Shown here: piece by piece, positions 9,901 to 44,600 of the stretch
Numbering within the stretch: position 1 is the first letter of the stretch
Layout of the letters: each line of letters begins with the position of its first letter
NCBI GenBank assembly: GCA_030141605.1
Contig: JAQGDQ010000451.1
Span: 86,001 to 150,000 of the forward strand
Direction: 5' to 3'
DNA from: Tubiluchus corallicola
Lineage: Eukaryota > Priapulida > Priapulimorpha > Priapulimorphida > Tubiluchidae
DNA length: 64,000 nucleotides
Position numbers and translations under genes: made by a program
The notes under the pieces: model-generated
The model's database searches: none
Told to the model about the DNA's origin: nothing
Seen by the model: the letters and a program-made list of their open reading frames with translations, nothing else

Positions 9901-12900
9901 TTCATTTCATCTTTATTAACTTGTCACATTGCAGCTTTGCCGTACGTCAAAAAGCCGGAAGAGAATCCGACATTTGCCACGTACTTCACACGTCACTGGC
10001 AAGACATGTTCTGGTTATCGTTGTTCAACTTTCTCAGCGTTCTCTTCGAATGTCTGCCGACGCCGAGGCTTCTCGGTACTGAAGCTGAGCAGAAAAAGAT
10101 TAAGGAATTAATAGAGGAAAATGAGAAGCTACGTGAACAGGTACAGCGATTGATTATTTGTTATTTCATTTTTTTTTTTATGATTTTTAGATATTTTTAC
10201 ACTATTCACACTAGATAAATGCCAAGATTTTGGGTTTAGGATTTTTAAATTTTGGTTCAGAAACCAGGTAAAATTTTTACACTAGTTACAAATAACATAG
10301 TTTGAATTGAGTTTGGATTACCATTAAATGGTGAACATTCTTGGTCTGCACATAGTGTGAACAATAAAAACTGCAGAAGATACGTGGTGCATGTGAACGG
10401 GCATAAAGCTATTTCTAATACTTGTTAAATGTTTAACTTTAAGTGCGGTATTAGAGTGCCTCTAATGTTTGAGGCAACAATTTGATATTGGCTTCTCCTA
10501 ATATATTTCTTGCTAGATGGCAGCACAAGTATTGTGCTGACCATCATCATCCTTTGCTGTTCCAAGCATGCTGCTTTATAACCTATAAATCCTATTTGTG
10601 AATAATTAAATTAATGTTTATATTTAAAAATTTTGCAGCTAGCGTTGGCCAGAGAAGGGAAGCGTACTCACGTAAGCGGAGATACGCGTTCAGAAGACAG
10701 TTCTGTACCAGAGTTAATGGATGATTTCTTTTGCATAGCTAAGTAAGTAGCTAAATTTTTTGTTGCAGTGAGTCGTGCTTTTGTACAAGGATTACAGATG
10801 GTGTGAAGACTTACACTTCGGGTACTGCCACACAAACACACTGAAAGTTGAAAAATGCACTTTGAGAAGTTTTTCAAAAGAACGATAATGAAAGGAAACT
10901 TTATATTATTTTTTTTACAAATAGTTTTTTATTTCTCGTGGATTTCACGCATACTGTCTTATCCACCATTATGTTAAATGTGTTCTTGAAACGTATTGAT
11001 TTTTTCCTAGAGAATCGTCGCCCATGTTCGCTGCAGATCAGAAAGGTCGCATCAAGTCTTTCATAAAAAATATCACACTACCGTCATCACCAATGTTAGG
11101 AAAAAAGCCGTCTCCGAGCAGCGTACCTTCGATGCAACCCGGTGCTTCCGGACCGAGTAATGTGAGTAGGTGTGCTTTAATCTTTAGTTATTACACGCAA
11201 CACCAGATGGAGCAGCGTACCTTCGATGCAACCGGGCTTCCGGACAGAGTAATGTGAGTAGGTGTACTTTAATCTTTAGTTATTACACGCAACACCAGAT
11301 GGAGCAGCGTACCTTCAATGCAACCCAGGGCTTCTGGACAGAGTAATGTGAGTAGGTGTACTTTAATCTTTAGTTATTACACGCAACACCAGATGGAGCA
11401 GCTTCGCATCGTAGGATAAAAATCTAAATAACTAATATTTATCATTGTCATGTCGTAAGTGTGATTATTTGTAGTTCATATGTGAATGTTGATAGATTTG
11501 AAATTTCATTAGTGAGTTCAAGTCTGAGTTACCATGTTCTAATACATTCATTAATGATGAGATAACTCTTATCTGAGTAATCACATTCTAATACATTCAT
11601 TAATGATATGATAACTCTTATCTGAGTAATCACATTCTAATGCATTCATTAATGATGAGATAACTCTTATGGTATATTGTTACAGATACCTAAAAAATCT
11701 AGTCAAACTTCCTTGGTAACCATTGGGGATGAAAAACAGTCATCAGTTGTGAGTGGGAAAGGAAAGGGGAAGGAATCGGTGCTGCAATCTTCACAACCAG
11801 CAAAGCCCAAATCAAAATCCAACGTTCCCGTACCTTCAGGTTTCTGATTTGTAATTGTTTAAATATGTGAAGGAAATATGTGTATGTTGTTTATTTATAT
11901 AAAGAATTCTTAAAGGAGAAGAAAAGGCTATTTTAAAGTGTTGTAAATTATTTATTTAAATTTGATTATATATTGTATATCTTAAAGGCTATTTTATATT
12001 TCCATAGAAAGTTATTACTTAGTATTACGTTTACCTGTTTGAAAGTCTTACCTAATTAGAAAAGAAAATTCTTAATAACTTAAAATATTCTTGCTAACTG
12101 GGATTAAACATCACTGCTTCTCTATCCCAGTGTACACAATTGATTTTACTGACAACATAAAAAAATGTAAATTTTTGCTTAGTTAGCCGAGAGTGTGGTA
12201 CGAATGCACTGGTTATTTTTTCAAACGTTACACATTGTTATATAAACGTGTTTCAAACAACCTAACATCAAAATGGCTGCACCCAACGATCATCTCACGA
12301 GTTCAAATTTTCAAGTTTTATACATCGTTACTGCTAACACAAGCTCTTTATGCAATAAAACAGCATTTAAGTGATATAGAATTTCAAGATGAATTTCCTT
12401 AATTCATGTAAATAAAAGGTTTTCTTGTACTTTAATGTAGTTTAAAGTGAGAGCAAAACAACATATGAAGCAATACCTTTACCACTGCTTCGTTGTTACA
12501 ACCAGTAACATGAGCACTGTTAATTTTTGCCTGTCAGCTATTGTAGACATTAGTGATAGCGATGTCGAATGATATTTACTAACTGAACAGATTTTGAATG
12601 AAAAAAATCACTTTGTTCAATAATTTGGAAAGACATAATTCATTTTTCTGGCTATTCTTGTGCAAGTGTATAACCTTGGCTGCAATCTTGTGCTGTTTGT
12701 GCTAATTTCAGAAGCTATTACTACACTATCATTAATGATTAAAACTAATATCAGTCCCTATCATACCTATGTTACTTTTTGTACTGTTTACATTTAGAAT
12801 ATTATTAATAGACGAAGTACCAGAACAAAGACAATCACAGATATGTCCTACAAATCATATCAAAATGTCCAAAATTTTCTAGCTCTAATAACTTGCTTCG

Positions 12901-15900
12901 TTATCAGACATACAAATTTTATCACTTAATTTTTCGCCTATAGCTTCCCAATTGTGTCCCCGTAGTTCTGCGCATGTCTTCACTCTCATTTTAAATATAG
13001 ATCGTATGAGACCCTAGTTATACTGCCATCATTAGCAACTTTCTGGGTATAGGCCGTCTCTGTCAATAACATGTTCTTAACGTTTCAAAAGTCAAGTATA
13101 TCCTGATAATAACATGCCCGAGCTTACGAGTTTCTATGGAAATGTAGCAAAAATCATAATTTAGTTCCCAAAAATATAAACTTCACAAAAAAATACGGGT
13201 CTCATAGAAAGTCATGGTTACCAATAAACATTACTACTAGCTACATTCGCAGCCGACAATGCAAGCAGAAAACTACCAGATGATACCATATAGAATACAA
13301 GTGCTGACATTGTCTGTGTTGCAGGACCTACATCGGTGTTTGTGAAAACCACGACTGCTGTCAGTGCCGAGCAGAACGTGCAGAGACCCACTTCTGCTGA
13401 GAAGGACAAAAATAAGCAGCGGGACAGCAAGCAACAGAGAATTCAACGTGAACAGCAAGAGAGAGAGAAGCAACGCAAGGAGCTTCTCGGAGATGCTGAT
13501 TACAGGAACGACTCGCAGGCAAAAGTTGGTTCCAGTTGCATTATTTTGTCTGTGAATGTTCTTTTGTTGGTTTTGTTAAGCAATTTTTTTACTACGTGTG
13601 TCTTCTTGCTAAGAAATATGATGCAAAACTCCTCTTGACAACTCAAATTTGTACAAAAGTTTGTGCTTTAGTACAAGATAGGAATGAGACGAAGCTTAAA
13701 TTTCCGAAACTGAATCTGAAGCTCACGCTTTTTCATTTTGTCAAAATCGAACCGAATCCGAATTTTGTAATCTAATATCAGTTACGTTTTCCATTTTTTG
13801 GATCAGCTGCGAGTTAGTTACAATGGATGTTATAAGTTTTGTTGAGATGTAAGGGTTTTGCTAAGCACAGTAAAGTTTCTTAATTCAGATTTAGTTTTTG
13901 GCTTAGTTCATCATCAGCTTGCTTTGATCTTTATCTATTGTCATCTAGAAAATATTACTACATCTATACAAAATGTGCATGATATTGTGTACAAAGAATT
14001 CAGGTGTATTTTATGACTGCACTTTCTTATTTTACACTAAATTAAATTTTAAAAAGTGAAAAGGAAGTTGAACACAATGCCTGCTGAAAAATCGTCTTTG
14101 TTTAGTAGCACGATAACCGAAACGTTAAAGTTAATTGTTGAGTTATGCCACTGTTAAAAATAGTGTCAGCTTGGCATTGATTTGACGACTTTTACAAAGA
14201 TTTGCGATCATGTTAATGGTGTCAATATGGCGAAGCTCACATTGCAAAATTTAACTTTTTTTAGAGGGGAAGTAAATGTTACAGCATTAATTGGCAGTGA
14301 ATTTGCTCCCTACATGGAACAAATATGACTTATGAAGACTTCCTCGCATTTTTTATGGAACCTAAATCGGATCCAAAGGAGTTAAAGTTAAACCGCGTTG
14401 GATTTGAATCGGAGCTTTTTGGAAACCAAAGTTCTGGAGTAGCGAAGCTTTGTCCCTTCCCGGAGTAACGAAGTTGTGTCCCATCCTGGAGTAGCGAAGC
14501 TTTGTCCCTTCCCCTTTGCAAGGCTTTGAGCTTTAAACTCTGTACCAGAATTGAAGTGCAGAAAATTATCTTTATGGACTGATTTTGTGCTAAGTGATCG
14601 TGACAAACTTTCTTCAATAACTTTCTTCAATTTAATTACTAATTTTAAAAATTTCTGCTTTAGGAGGACAGACTAGGACAAACACCATCGGCTAACAACT
14701 CCAATAACATAGGTAAGCGTGATTGTTAGTCAAAATTACGTATATTTATATTACTGATACTGTACGGGTTTGATTTTAATATGTGCAAAACTGCTATAAA
14801 GGCCTGTTTTAAAACTATTGAACTGATATTGAAAATCATTACTACATTGCTTATGGTATTTTGTAATTCGGTATGTCAATAATTTACTGTAGTATGAATA
14901 TTATTTGATTGACATTTTCATTTTTCAACATAGTTTTTTCCAACCAGTGAATTTTCTACTCAGCTTAGACCTTTTCAATTATTTTTCATAAAATTTCTTA
15001 AGTTTCCTTGCCTTAGAAAAACTTTTCCTGGCAGTGCGAATGATTATGACGGAATAGTGAAGCAAGTTCTGTACATTTGTTTATACTGTTTCCAATCCTT
15101 TTGAATGTAAATGATTATGACGGAATAGTGAAATATGTTCTGTACATTTGTTTATACTGTTTCCAAACTTTTTGAATGCGAATGATTATGACGGAATAGT
15201 GAAGTAAGTTCTGTACATTTGTTTATACTGTTTCCAAACTTTTTGAATGCGAATGATTATGACGGAATAGTGAAGTAAGTTCTGTACATTTGTTTATACT
15301 GTTTCCAAACCTTTTGAATGCGAATGATTATGACGGAATAGTGAAATATGTTCTGTACGTTTGTTTATACTGTTTCCAAACTTTTTGAATGCGAATGATT
15401 ATGACGGAATAGTGAAGTAAGTTCTGTACATTTGTTTATACTGTTTCCAAACTTTTTGAATGCGAATGATTATGACGGAATAGTGAAGTAAGTTCTGTAC
15501 ATTTGTTTATACTGTTTCCAAACTTTTTGAATGCGAATGATTATGACGGAATAGTGAAGTAAGTTCTGTACATTTGTTTATACTGTTTCCAAACCTTTTG
15601 AATGCGAATGATTATGACGGAATAGTGAAATATGTTCTGTACATTTGTTTATACTGTTTCAGTCCTTTTGAATGCAAATGATTATGACAGAATAGTGAAG
15701 CAAGTTCTGTACATTTGTTTATACTGTTTCCAAACATTTTGAATGCGAATGATTATGACGGAATAGTGAAGTAAGTTCTGTACATTTGTTTATACTGTTT
15801 CCAAACATTTTGAATGCGAATGATTATGACGGAATAGTGAAGTAAGTTCTGTACGTTTGTTTATACTGTTTCCAATCCTTTTGAATGCGAATGATTATGA

Positions 15901-18900
15901 CGGAATAGTGAAGTAAGTTCTGTACATTTGTTTATACTGTTTCCAAACATTTTGAATGCGAATGATTATGACGGAATAGTGAAGTAAGTTCTGTACGTTT
16001 GTTTATACTGTTTCCAATCCTTTTGAATGCGAATGATTATGACGGAATAGTGAAGTAAGTTCTGTACATTTGTTTATACTGTTTCCAAACATTTTGAATG
16101 CGAATGATTATGACGGAATAGTGAAGTAAGTTCTGTACGTTTGTTTATACTGTTTCCAAACCTTTTGAATGCGAATGATTATGACGGAATAGTGAAGTAA
16201 GTTCTGTACGTTTGTTTATACTGTTTCCAAACATTTTGAATGCGAATGATTATGACGGAATAGTGAAGTAAGTTCTGTACGTTTGTTTATACTGTTTCTA
16301 AACCTTTTGAATGCAAATGATTATGAGTGAATAGTGAAATATGTTCTGTACATTTGTTTATACTGTTACCAAACCTTTTGAATGCGAATGATTATGACGG
16401 AATAGTGAAGTAAGTTCTGTACATTTGTTTATACTGTTTCCAAACCTTTTGAATGCGAATGATTATGACGGAATAGTGAAGTAAGTTCTGTACATTTGTT
16501 TATACTGTTTCCAAACATTTTGAATGCGAATGATTATGACGGAATAGTGAAGTAAGTTCTGTACATTTGTTTATACTGTTTCTAATCCTTTTGAATGCGA
16601 ATCCGGTGTTAGTTATATTTTCTCAAACTCTGATTATAAAATATCTATTCTTATACAATGTAGCCTGACATCTTTTACAGCTATCCTGACGATACGACTA
16701 TTGCCATATTTTCAGTTAATGACCACGATCGATTGCCCAAAGAACCAAGCAATATTGCACGGGGAGAAGTGAAGAAATCTTCTAAGAAAGTTGCACAGTC
16801 CGAACGCGCCGCTCCGTCACCGTTTCTTCTTCTTAGTCAAGATGAATATAAAGAGCACCAATCAGCGATCACACATTGTCGGTTTAGTCCAACCGGATCT
16901 CTTGTTGCTAGCTGTGATTATGACGGAATAGTGAAGTAAGTTCTGTACATTTGTGTATACTGTTCCTGCAACTGCGCTGGTGATTTTTGAGGTATAAGTT
17001 TGTACTAAATCGTAAATCTAGAAAAGAATTTTGCGCCAAGTTCTGCTCAACTGTAACAATGTTTTTGCAACGGCAAGTTAGGTTCATATTGTTACTGTGC
17101 CTATTGTACAATTCTTTTTTTGTAAATTTGTTGAACAAAGGTTCTAGTTAGAGTGTAAACGCGCTCATTTATATTGTTGCAATATTCTAAACATTTCTAA
17201 ATAATTTTCACAGTTTTGGGGTGGAGGTGGGCTTAAAATGTGTGACCCGTAATTAGGAATGTAACAAGTACAACTTCATTAATTTGTAATATATCTTGGT
17301 AAATTGTATGTACAGTAGGCGCTGCCTAATAGACTCACTTTGGGATGGAAGTGTTTTGACCCATTTAACCGTCTGATTCAATTAGCCGACGTGTGTAACC
17401 TATTACTACTAGGGAATTGTGAGCCATAATTCATCATTTTAGTATTGCATTGCAAAGGCTTTAAATGAATTTCAGAAACGAATTAATGTCAAAATTCATA
17501 TGAGCAATTATTTAGGAGTACTAAATTGCATAAGTGAATTAATAAAAAACAATGGAAATACAAAAGTCGCAAACCGCTGTGCAAGTGATTAACTGTTTAC
17601 TTTCCAGAAACAATGGGGTTAACTGCAGCGGATAAGCGGGTGACAGATTCAAAGCAAAACTGCTTGTTAACTATTTTAGGGCATATGATAAACGTACTAA
17701 ACTTGCTCACAAACAAAGCTGTACCTAACTTGACTGTTTCTACGTACATTATAGTGCACAAAATCGAAATAAAATGACATAAAGCAGCAGAAGCTCTTTG
17801 GGCACCCAGAAATGTCTTATTTTAAGTGTGTGAAGTAAAAATATCGAGTCCACTATACGGAGTTATATGAGCCAATTACCGACAGTTTTTATGTACATTT
17901 GAATAGGAACGGCGGCCCGTACTGAACGTTTTTGAGTCAATTAATCAACTGAGTCTATTAAACCCGAGTGTAATAAACGTTACCTACTGTATATGTAATC
18001 AGGGCACATTAAATTATCGCATTATGGGGATGGGTTTGGTAGGAGGGATGAAGCTAAGAATTTGGCCATTAATGAAGAATGTACAAAGTATATTCTTCAT
18101 CATCTGAAGGTTTTGCAATAGTAGAACTTAAACTGCACAAGTTTACTCACCATTAAAGGTTAGTTGAAGGAAATAGATCACACGTGACAGCCACAAGTCA
18201 GTGATCACACGTGACAGCCACAAGTCAGCGATTAACAAGTGATTAACAACATCTTCACGGTTTTCTGACCACCAAATTTGCATTTTGGTTGTATATATGG
18301 AGTGGTGGTACTCATTTTGATGACATTTTCATCATTTCTAATTCAGCATAACTGTTATGCGCTCTATCCAAGTTTGCTGTCTCAACACTCGTCAAAAGGG
18401 TTTTTCATGTCTGATGTGATCTGATCTTACTGAAACTATAGACTTAATCATTTTCATATTCTAACCGATTTAGTCATATGTTTAAGAACTATAAATTTGT
18501 CATATAATTTACCAAAACACTTGTCCAATTTAACTTGTTAATCTTTCTGAGCACCTTCCAGCAAGCAGACACATTTTTGACGATGTTAAACTAGAAAGGT
18601 ACCTGTTTGATAATATTTCTTTTTTTATTTTAGAATCTGGTCAATCAGCCCTTCACCGAATACAGTTGTTGTGGTGATGACAAAATCCCCTATCCTGTGT
18701 TTGGAGTGGGCCGGAAAAACAGACAAATACGTATGTTATTGTTTGTTTACATTTTTATGTATGTTTTGTTACTATACATGCTATGAATGATGCACCATTG
18801 AACAATGAACAATGAACATTGAACAATGAACAATGAACAATGAACTTGCCTAAACACTTCATTATGTTCTCAAATCAAGATCAAAAGCAACATCATTATA

Positions 18901-41600: not shown

Positions 41601-44600
41601 ATTTTACAACTGCTGATAATTTTTTAAAGTATTTAAGACATTAAGTATGCACTCTATGCTGATCTGTACAAAGTGTCTCTAAAGTACTGCACCTTGCGCA
41701 GTTTTTTATGCTATGTAGATTTTCTAGTTTGCCGTTTTATCACCATTTTTAGTCTATTGTTATTGGCTTAAATCAAAATAACTATTAACAGATCAAATAA
41801 CTGTCAGTTTCAAAATTTCATTAATTTTAAAGGCAGAAAATATTCTCGTATCCCGCGGGATATGAAAGGGTTAATGCTTTTTTGAAACCAGACATAGTAG
41901 AAAAGAAAGGAGTATGAAAGAGTTGCATCCTGCTAGATTTCACGGGTTATTCTGCGCTCTAGATGAAACAAAATGACTCCCATGTGAATAAACTAAAATA
42001 TTGGAGGATTAAACTGGTTGGTGGGTTATTAGATTTCAAGAACTATGGCTTGAATCAGTGGCCGTGTAGTGGTGACATCATGATGGACTTGTATGGGTGT
42101 ATGGCAGTAGTCTTGGCATGTGCCTTACAATGTAAAGGTCGCTGGTTCAAGTCCAAGGGTCATTATAATCTGTAAAACATTTCTTCCTGTCTGGTTTGAT
42201 TATTAAAAATTGATAATAACGAGTTTTGCCATCGTTAATTGTTAAGTGCGCCTTCTGAATGTCGAAGCTCCATGTTTCGGAACAAGTGTTTGCAAAAATT
42301 TTGAAAATATATTAAACTACTTAATGAGTCATTTCCTCTCTTTATTAAAATGTAGTTAGTAATATTTTGATTGCTTATTGTATTGGGCATTTGATGTTGG
42401 GTCAATCAAATGTGTGTTTTTAATTATTTGTTGCAACTGTATGTTTTGTCTAATACTAATGAAATGATGTTAGATGTTGTTGTAGTGATGATGCTGGTTT
42501 GAATGCGGAAGACCTGAGTTCAAATCCAACTGTGGAAAGAAACTATTTTTCGAGACTTTGTTAATTTATTTCATGCATTTCTGTATAATAAATGCAGTTT
42601 GTATTCCGTTTTTGCAGGATCGAAGCAAGACGTGGACTTGCCAAAACCAGAAGTTACTTTGTTTGAAGATCTGCTAGAAGATGTCACCACTGTGACGTCA
42701 GGGAAAGTCCTGGTAAGAAGCAATAAGATTAGGTGTTGTACAATAATAGTCAGTGAAACTTGTTGATATGTAAACATTACACAAAATCTATAATATATTT
42801 TTATTGATACTGAACAACAAAAATTTTGGTTTCATTCATCTAACAATCAAATTTGGTTTTGTTTAAATCACGAGCAAATTTTCGTAAAACATTGAGATAG
42901 GAATCTGTATCATCAGAATCTACCACCAGTGACACTTGTTAAAGTAGCAAATCTCTTTTACAGTCTTGCTAAATGAGTGGCTCCATCCATTTCTGGGCAA
43001 TGCATATCAGAAATTTTAAGCAATCGTGATTATTTTTGCCTAGGTAACTGATAACCAGGTGTGATAATTTTTGCCTAAGTAACTGATTACCAGGTGTAGT
43101 TATTTTTGCCTAGGTAACTGATTACCAGGTGTAGTTATTTTTGCCTAAGTAACTGATTACCAGGTGTAGTTATTTTTGCCTAGGTAACTGATTACCAGAT
43201 GTGATTATTTTTGCCTAGGTAATTGATAACCAGGGTGATTATTTTTGCCTAGGTAACTGATTACCAGATGTGATTATTTTTGCCTAGGTAACTGATTACC
43301 AGGTGTGATTATTTTTGCATAGTTAACTGATTACCAGGTGTGATTATTTTTGCCTAGGTAACTGATTACCAGATGTGATTATTTTTGCCTAGGTAACTGA
43401 TTACCAGATGTGATTATTTTTGCCTAGGTAACTGATTACCAGGTGTGATTATTTTTGCCTAGGTAACTGATTACCAGATGTGATTATTTTTGCCTAGGTA
43501 ACTGATTACCAGGTGTGATTATTTTTGCCTAGGTAACTGATTACCAGGTGTGATTATTTTTGCCTAGGTAACTGATTACCAGATGTGATTATTTTTGCCT
43601 AGGTAACTGATTACCAGATGTGATTATTTTTGCCTATCTCACAAAGACCATTTTGTTCTGCAGTAGAAATGGAATAATTTGTTTAAAAACTGTGCACAGA
43701 ATTCGAGCTAAATTGTGTCATTTTTGGTAGTTGAAGTGGTGAATTACACTCATATCTCAGTTTGCCGGACCTCGCTTTTACAGATATTGGAAAATTCGGA
43801 CATGTGTCCTGAATAATATGAACACAGTCCGTTATTTTGCGAGCTGGCCACTAGTTGGTGGGCCGTCACTTTGTTTACATCACGTACATCAGTGTAACCA
43901 TGTGTATATCTCTATGTATAAAATGTAGAATCGATTATGCAGAGTTATTGAAGTCAGTTGCCGATAGTTTTTATATACTGTTGCATAAGAGCGGCCCGTA
44001 CTAGATGTTTTTGAGACAATTAGGCGATTGATTCTACATTACTGTGAGTCTAATACACGGCACCTACCGTATTAGTTTAGTATTAGAAAATACGGACAAT
44101 CGGCAAATTTGGACCGACGCCACTCCGCTTGTGTCCAGCAAACCGAGACATGAGTGTATTCAAATCCATAATCTTAGGTTCGAGTTGAATTCGAAGGTTC
44201 AGTGCTCACCTCTACTGATTAGTGTAATAACTGCTGATCTGATACTAATGTTCTGTAAATAGCAGCATTTGACATATCACACTGATAACTCATCATGGCC
44301 ATTGTGTGATCAGTATTCAATCAGTGCTGTTAAGCTTCGAACTTGATAATTTGTGGCAGTTTTTACAAACATTGCTGTACATTTGCAAGCGTCTTGCTTC
44401 ATTGTTTTTAGCCTAAATTTTTGGTATTAGACAGCAATCATTTAACAATCAGTTAATGGGAAAAGTAATCGATGTTACTTTTTCAGTAATACGTATTTGC
44501 TGATTTAGAATTCTTTTTCAGATTCGACCCGATGGCTACATCAAAGTAATAGGCCCAGAAGAAGAAGAGAAACTGATAGCAGCAAGAGCTACAGCTGGCA

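Follow-up and report, generated by a model that had tools for sequence, protein, structure and literature searches.

Minisatellites derived from splice junctions have been described in lancelets, where these so-called mirages are found in Adh3, in the globin genes BflGb6 and BflGb9 (PMC3087553), and in TnC and PGBD5 (PMC3902484). Mirage units measure 10–72 bp in Adh3 and about 150–160 bp in the globins, their length is unstable, and reverse transcription PCR together with the Adh3 data suggest that they leave regular splicing undisturbed (PMC3087553). In humans, the repeat units of the IFI6 minisatellite are reportedly used as alternative donors (Turri et al. 1995, cited in PMC4526556). Here we analyse a 64,000-nt stretch of the priapulid Tubiluchus corallicola (assembly GCA_030141605.1, contig JAQGDQ010000451.1, positions 86,001 to 150,000, forward strand; hereafter the window), in which an intron of the gene WDR91 contains a tandem array matching the exon-intron junction that follows it. 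We consider it likely that this array represents a displaced form of mirage, a minisatellite derived from a splice junction, and that it is most probably a neutral passenger. An initial annotation of the window had called the pattern undescribed, a claim that falls in view of the lancelet and IFI6 cases.

The elements of the locus, in window coordinates, are as follows; the exon and intron numbers 9 and 10 come from the initial annotation, in which the exon that supplied the junction is exon 10.

14664 to 14712, forward strand: exon before the array, with donor TAG/GTAAGCGT (the slash marks the exon-intron boundary) and a U1 pairing energy of -9.4 kcal/mol
14713 to 16715, forward strand: WDR91 intron containing the array
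15035 to 16602, forward strand: minisatellite array, upstream of the source exon, with 22 units of 71 bp (one of 70 bp) as assembled
16716 to 16935, forward strand: WDR91 exon supplying the junction, open in frame
16915 to 16967, forward strand: source of the unit, in which 21 nt from the end of the WDR91 exon are followed by 32 nt from the start of the next intron, including its donor
16936 to 18633, forward strand: intron after the source exon; the next exon begins at 18634

The source exon is preceded by TTTTCAG, its acceptor AG lying at 16714–16715, and it ends in AA before GTAAGT, with the donor at 16936. The exon from 18634 starts AATCTGG, so that the split codon AA/A encodes K and is followed by ATC TGG, or I-W. 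When the exons were joined by hand, the best matches of the resulting protein were WDR91 structures (8shj, E 2.8e-93), and DYDGIVKIW of the source exon aligned with DVDGVIKVW of that structure.

All 22 units of the array match the junction at 16915–16967, at 46–51 of 53 positions in ungapped alignment, while the next-best place on the forward strand of the window reaches 29 of 53. This alignment of the units with the junction, a check proposed in the initial annotation, upholds its description of some 22 tandem 71-bp units in a WDR91 intron, each containing the last 21 nt of an exon, the donor and the start of the following intron, the intronic part being 32 nt long. The array also lies, as had been stated, upstream of the real source exon: it ends at 16602 and the source boundary is at 16935/16936. 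When the array was compared by BLAST with the remainder of the window, a single place was returned, again 16915–16967 (96.2% over 53 nt, E 3.6e-19). In the 343.5-Mb assembly, where one copy of the locus was found, the 71-bp unit gave 23 matches, one for each of the 22 units and one, of 98% over 50 nt, for the junction, and no further match, although the search scores the best candidates only and rare distant relatives could be missed. Across 264 kb of the assembly (the window itself, a further 80 kb alongside and 120 kb from a second contig; sampled G+C content 34–36%, compared with near 41% in lancelet genomes), 18 arrays passed our cut of period at least 10, copies at least 2.5 and score at least 100, and the WDR91 array alone had an outside relative within 10 kb at E ≤ 0.001, in a comparison that is blind to sources inside an array's own borders. 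Because the copied exonic part encodes a conserved WD40 segment, the exon is the older copy and the array its derivative, which supports WDR91's own exon-intron junction as the seed.

The array itself is a minisatellite: its units are tandem, imperfect, within the range of roughly 10–100 bp (71 bp × 22), and subject to turnover. Tandem Repeats Finder reported 15035–16602 with a period of 71, 22.1 copies and 95% matches, and cutting at the common anchor GATTATGA yielded 21 units of 71 bp and one of 70 bp. These fall into 14 distinct types in the order ABCDECCDFGHIHIHJKLMDHN, with a mean pairwise difference of 3.28 of 71 positions (4.6%). The 14 types, including the HIHIH stretch, point to stepwise turnover of units; over the whole array, neighbour similarity was not significant at lag 1 (p 0.63) or lag 2 (p 0.16). 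The heptamer TGCGAAT stands at both array ends and recurs in 19 of the 22 units.

These observed features of the array, namely its homology, the lack of another match found, its direction, its displaced position, its unit turnover and the variation of its donors (below), lead us to propose the following origin. A patch of about 53 bp, running from the 3' end of the exon into the beginning of the following intron, would have been copied into the upstream intron, presumably by templated repair of a break or by template switching. Joined to some 18–20 bp of other sequence, it would have formed the 71-bp unit, which slippage or unequal exchange may then have amplified. The copied donors, which are moderate and are accompanied by neither the exon's own acceptor nor the exon body, would probably be passed over, and the intron would normally be excised between the stronger upstream donor and the acceptor of the source exon; that splicing is left unaffected is what we infer from this arrangement.

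Several points weigh against this proposal. The published mirages considered here sit at the boundary itself and none is displaced (PMC3087553, PMC3902484), and PMC3087553 allows mirage splice signals to act as cryptic sites. The assembly was also searched with patterns in which a splice word occurs three times within a fixed gap range, the reversed pattern serving as control, and the array's own donor word, AAGTAAGT (gaps 48–78), showed no excess over its control (6376 placements versus 7566), many GTAA-type simple repeats being among the matches listed. Finally, the insertion step has left no decisive scar. When the window without the array was searched with short words, the 18–20-bp tail of the unit had a best match of 11 nt (E 0.29); when three tail variants were compared with five nearby stretches, the tail resembled the left flank in one of 15 comparisons (p 0.019), which is weak after multiple testing.

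The donors of the units bear on what the array might do. Sixteen of the 22 units have GTAAGT as their donor hexamer, four have ATATGT and two GCAAGT; the 16 units carry GAA/GTAAGTTC and are identical to the real junction donor from -3 to +8. The assembly contains nine U1 genes scoring above the family cut-off, and the 5' end ATACTTACCTG was present in all three loci read. Against ATACTTACCTG, the junction donor and its 16 intact copies pair at -5.6 kcal/mol, compared with -9.4 for the donor of the upstream exon and -14.0 for a perfect site, and pairing no weaker than that of the copies is reached by 227 of the 3945 GTs elsewhere in the window. With A at the last exon base, the junction-type donor is a moderate match to U1, and "near-perfect", the term used in the initial annotation, overstates the 16 units that keep GTAAGT. 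Within the copied stretch, three of six columns of the hexamer are variable compared with four of 44 elsewhere (Fisher p 0.03), an excess that rests on few changes, probably shared by descent.

A functional reading holds that these tandem donors recruit U1 as decoys, slow or prevent removal of the intron, and so cut WDR91 output or tie it to unit number. The identity of 16 units to the real donor would suit it, as would the consequence of using an array donor, since the upstream exon extended past its own donor meets a stop at the sixth codon, which would lower output. A splicing decoy would, however, be expected to keep a strong, maintained donor motif, whereas here pairing is moderate and matched by many unrelated GTs, six of 22 units have lost the motif, and the hexamer varies more than the remainder of the copied stretch. 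By analogy, the reported indifference of regular splicing to mirages also argues against it (PMC3087553). We therefore consider a decoy role unlikely, and find nothing in the DNA to favour the delayed intron removal or U1 titration suggested in the initial annotation. As far as sequence can indicate, the array donors appear ordinary and not visibly maintained, with no sign of upkeep as a decoy. Donor strength, donor variation and the published mirages together suggest that the effect of the array on splicing is probably small.

Tandem arrays are difficult to assemble, and the copies could be real while their number and order are wrong; the draft sequence of one lancelet mirage was apparently misassembled, and haplotypes there differ in units, six versus three (PMC3087553). 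We regard a partial artefact of this sort as quite unlikely here, given that the 264 kb contain no Ns and that the 14 unit types stand in a structured order, and it would touch the copy number rather than the existence of the array.

Duplication of exons into a neighbouring intron is common, and the array might be what is left of an exon that was duplicated upstream as a whole, its junction part having been amplified while the remainder decayed. BLAST comparisons at E ≤ 1 of the sequences flanking the array with those around the junction (exon body and downstream intron) yielded, besides self matches, just two matches of 10 nt, which argues for the copying of a small patch and not of the whole exon. 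Moreover, the copied part is still 87–96% alike, so that an exon body co-duplicated at that age should remain visible; such a relic is very unlikely.

The reverse direction, in which an older intronic satellite gave the exon end its sequence through gene conversion, is possible in principle as an exchange between array and junction but comes without any supporting result, and it is highly improbable given the conserved WD40 segment encoded by the 21 exonic nt and the absence of any other match to the unit in the genome search.

The reading that we prefer, of a junction-derived minisatellite carried along neutrally, also draws support from a second boundary repeat in WDR91 and from in-place repeats in three further genes with protein-supported exons (below).

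11116 to 11402, forward strand: second WDR91 boundary repeat, in place, with three near-copies of an exon end 92 and 94 bp apart

Each copy has the donor AAT/GTGAGTAGG, with GT at 11162, 11254 and 11348, and the probable exon, identified by frame, ends at 11161 and is in frame with the next one. The repeat lies at the boundary itself, in contrast to the array at 15035–16602.

Two further donor words gave an excess in the genome patterns: AGGTAAGT (gaps 22–52) had 1902 placements versus 105 for its reversed control (18-fold), and CAGGTAAGT (gaps 51–81) had 327 versus 40 (8-fold). The acceptor pattern, TTTTGCAG three times, gave 240 versus 199, no clear excess, and a single cluster on C159 accounted for most of the matches listed. 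Because placements overlap and form clusters, they are not counts of independent loci, and many of the listed AGGTAAGT rows belong to one dispersed repeat. On the basis of two of three donor words and one acceptor word, donors rather than acceptors would found such arrays in this genome, a provisional conclusion against which the lancelet mirages weigh, as they include acceptor sides (PMC3087553, PMC3902484).

Eleven AGGTAAGT clusters were examined among the matches listed: C5, C24, C30 and C32 from the AGGTAAGT listing, and C9, C217, C236, C265, C357, C507 and C557 from the CAGGTAAGT listing, C507 and C557 sharing one unit family. A dispersed family on C16, C17, C38, C46, C48 and C50 and a simple repeat on C36 were left out of this sample. 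In three of the 11 clusters (C5, C32 and C9), the first donor of the array directly follows a protein-supported exon, a proportion that is no rate for minisatellites generally, since the clusters were selected by donor motif. In two others, an open frame reaches the first array donor.

L028, 2021 to 3617, reverse strand: PDCL3-like exon (7nvm, E 9.3e-20) running into an array of 47 copies at 33 bp (C5)
L039, from 1938, forward strand: Smoothened-like exon (4c79, E 7.4e-26) running into an array of four copies at 42 bp, GT kept in three of the four (C32)
L032, from about offset 2345, reverse strand: DUSP8/16-like exon (4yr8, E 9.9e-10) running into an array of at least seven copies at 79–81 bp (C9)
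L029, 2026 to 2357, forward strand: open frame reaching the first array donor, no Pfam match
L033, from about 2116, forward strand: open frame reaching the first array donor, no Pfam match

The unit consensus of the PDCL3-like array matches the exon end at 22 of 26 positions (21–23 for single copies, save one shifted copy), and 37 of its 47 donors read CAG/GTAAGTGG, which pairs with U1 at -13.2 kcal/mol. The two open frames, which belong to C24 and C217 and of which that of C24 resembles a signal peptide, were not counted: they have no Pfam match, and the units share only about four exon bases. Judged by open frames, the remaining six clusters (C30, C236, C265, C357, C507 and C557) have no recognised exon at the array start, the contig of C265 ending within about 1 kb. 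The same holds for C29, the sole locus examined from the AAGTAAGT list, one frame of which gave no match in Pfam.

Two other repeats were noted. The dispersed repeat on C16, C17, C38, C46, C48 and C50 consists of tandem units containing AGGTAAGTCAAATGTAGACA, with a donor-like motif in the units listed. Within the window, 43026–43636 holds a 35-bp array of 17.5 copies with CCTAGGTAACT and CCAGGTG motifs, whose left edge has no recognised exon. Family searches of the assembly for COX1, GH6 and GFP returned no match; for GH6 and GFP this does not indicate absence, as the control genomes gave no signal either.

A broader proposal, which we offer tentatively and hold to be doubtful, is that minisatellites in this genome are repeatedly born from exon ends together with their donors, and from donors far more than from acceptors. 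Up to 47 near-identical donors beside the real one might be tolerated through a positional rule by which the exon-proximal donor is taken, and patches could escape, as in WDR91, and may tune splicing by unit number.

New here are the displacement of an array upstream of its source, the second, in-place repeat in WDR91, and the PDCL3-, Smoothened- and DUSP-like exons that run into donor arrays. Among the open-licence papers listed, in searches none of which was aimed at displaced cases, we met no displaced boundary minisatellite. A single assembly with a displaced array, a second WDR91 repeat and three further genes allows one to ask how boundary repeats arise, and its tandem donors, as many as 47 near-identical ones in an array, could serve as natural experiments on how the spliceosome chooses among equal 5' splice sites.

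Among described systems, intron gain in the potato RdRp gene by tandem duplication across an intron-exon boundary (PMC4974935) also copies splice signals, and dual-specific splice sites in tandem repeats (PMC10809524) likewise involve duplicated splice signals; the WDR91 array differs from both in implying no new intron, only donors being scored in its units. Class 2 templated sequence insertions (PMC5110952) resemble a candidate first step, in that a short patch arrives from elsewhere without a poly(A) tract, although their patches are said to come from distant regions, whereas source and target in WDR91 are a few hundred bp apart and the patch was then amplified. The IFI6 minisatellite is similar in offering several donor sites within a gene (PMC4526556), but its donors are reportedly in use, while the WDR91 array is remote from its exon. 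The closest likeness is with the lancelet mirages: in both, the tandemly repeated unit extends across an exon-intron boundary of the host gene, carries its splice signals and turns over in the manner of a minisatellite, with the difference that the WDR91 array sits in the preceding intron, away from the boundary that it copies.

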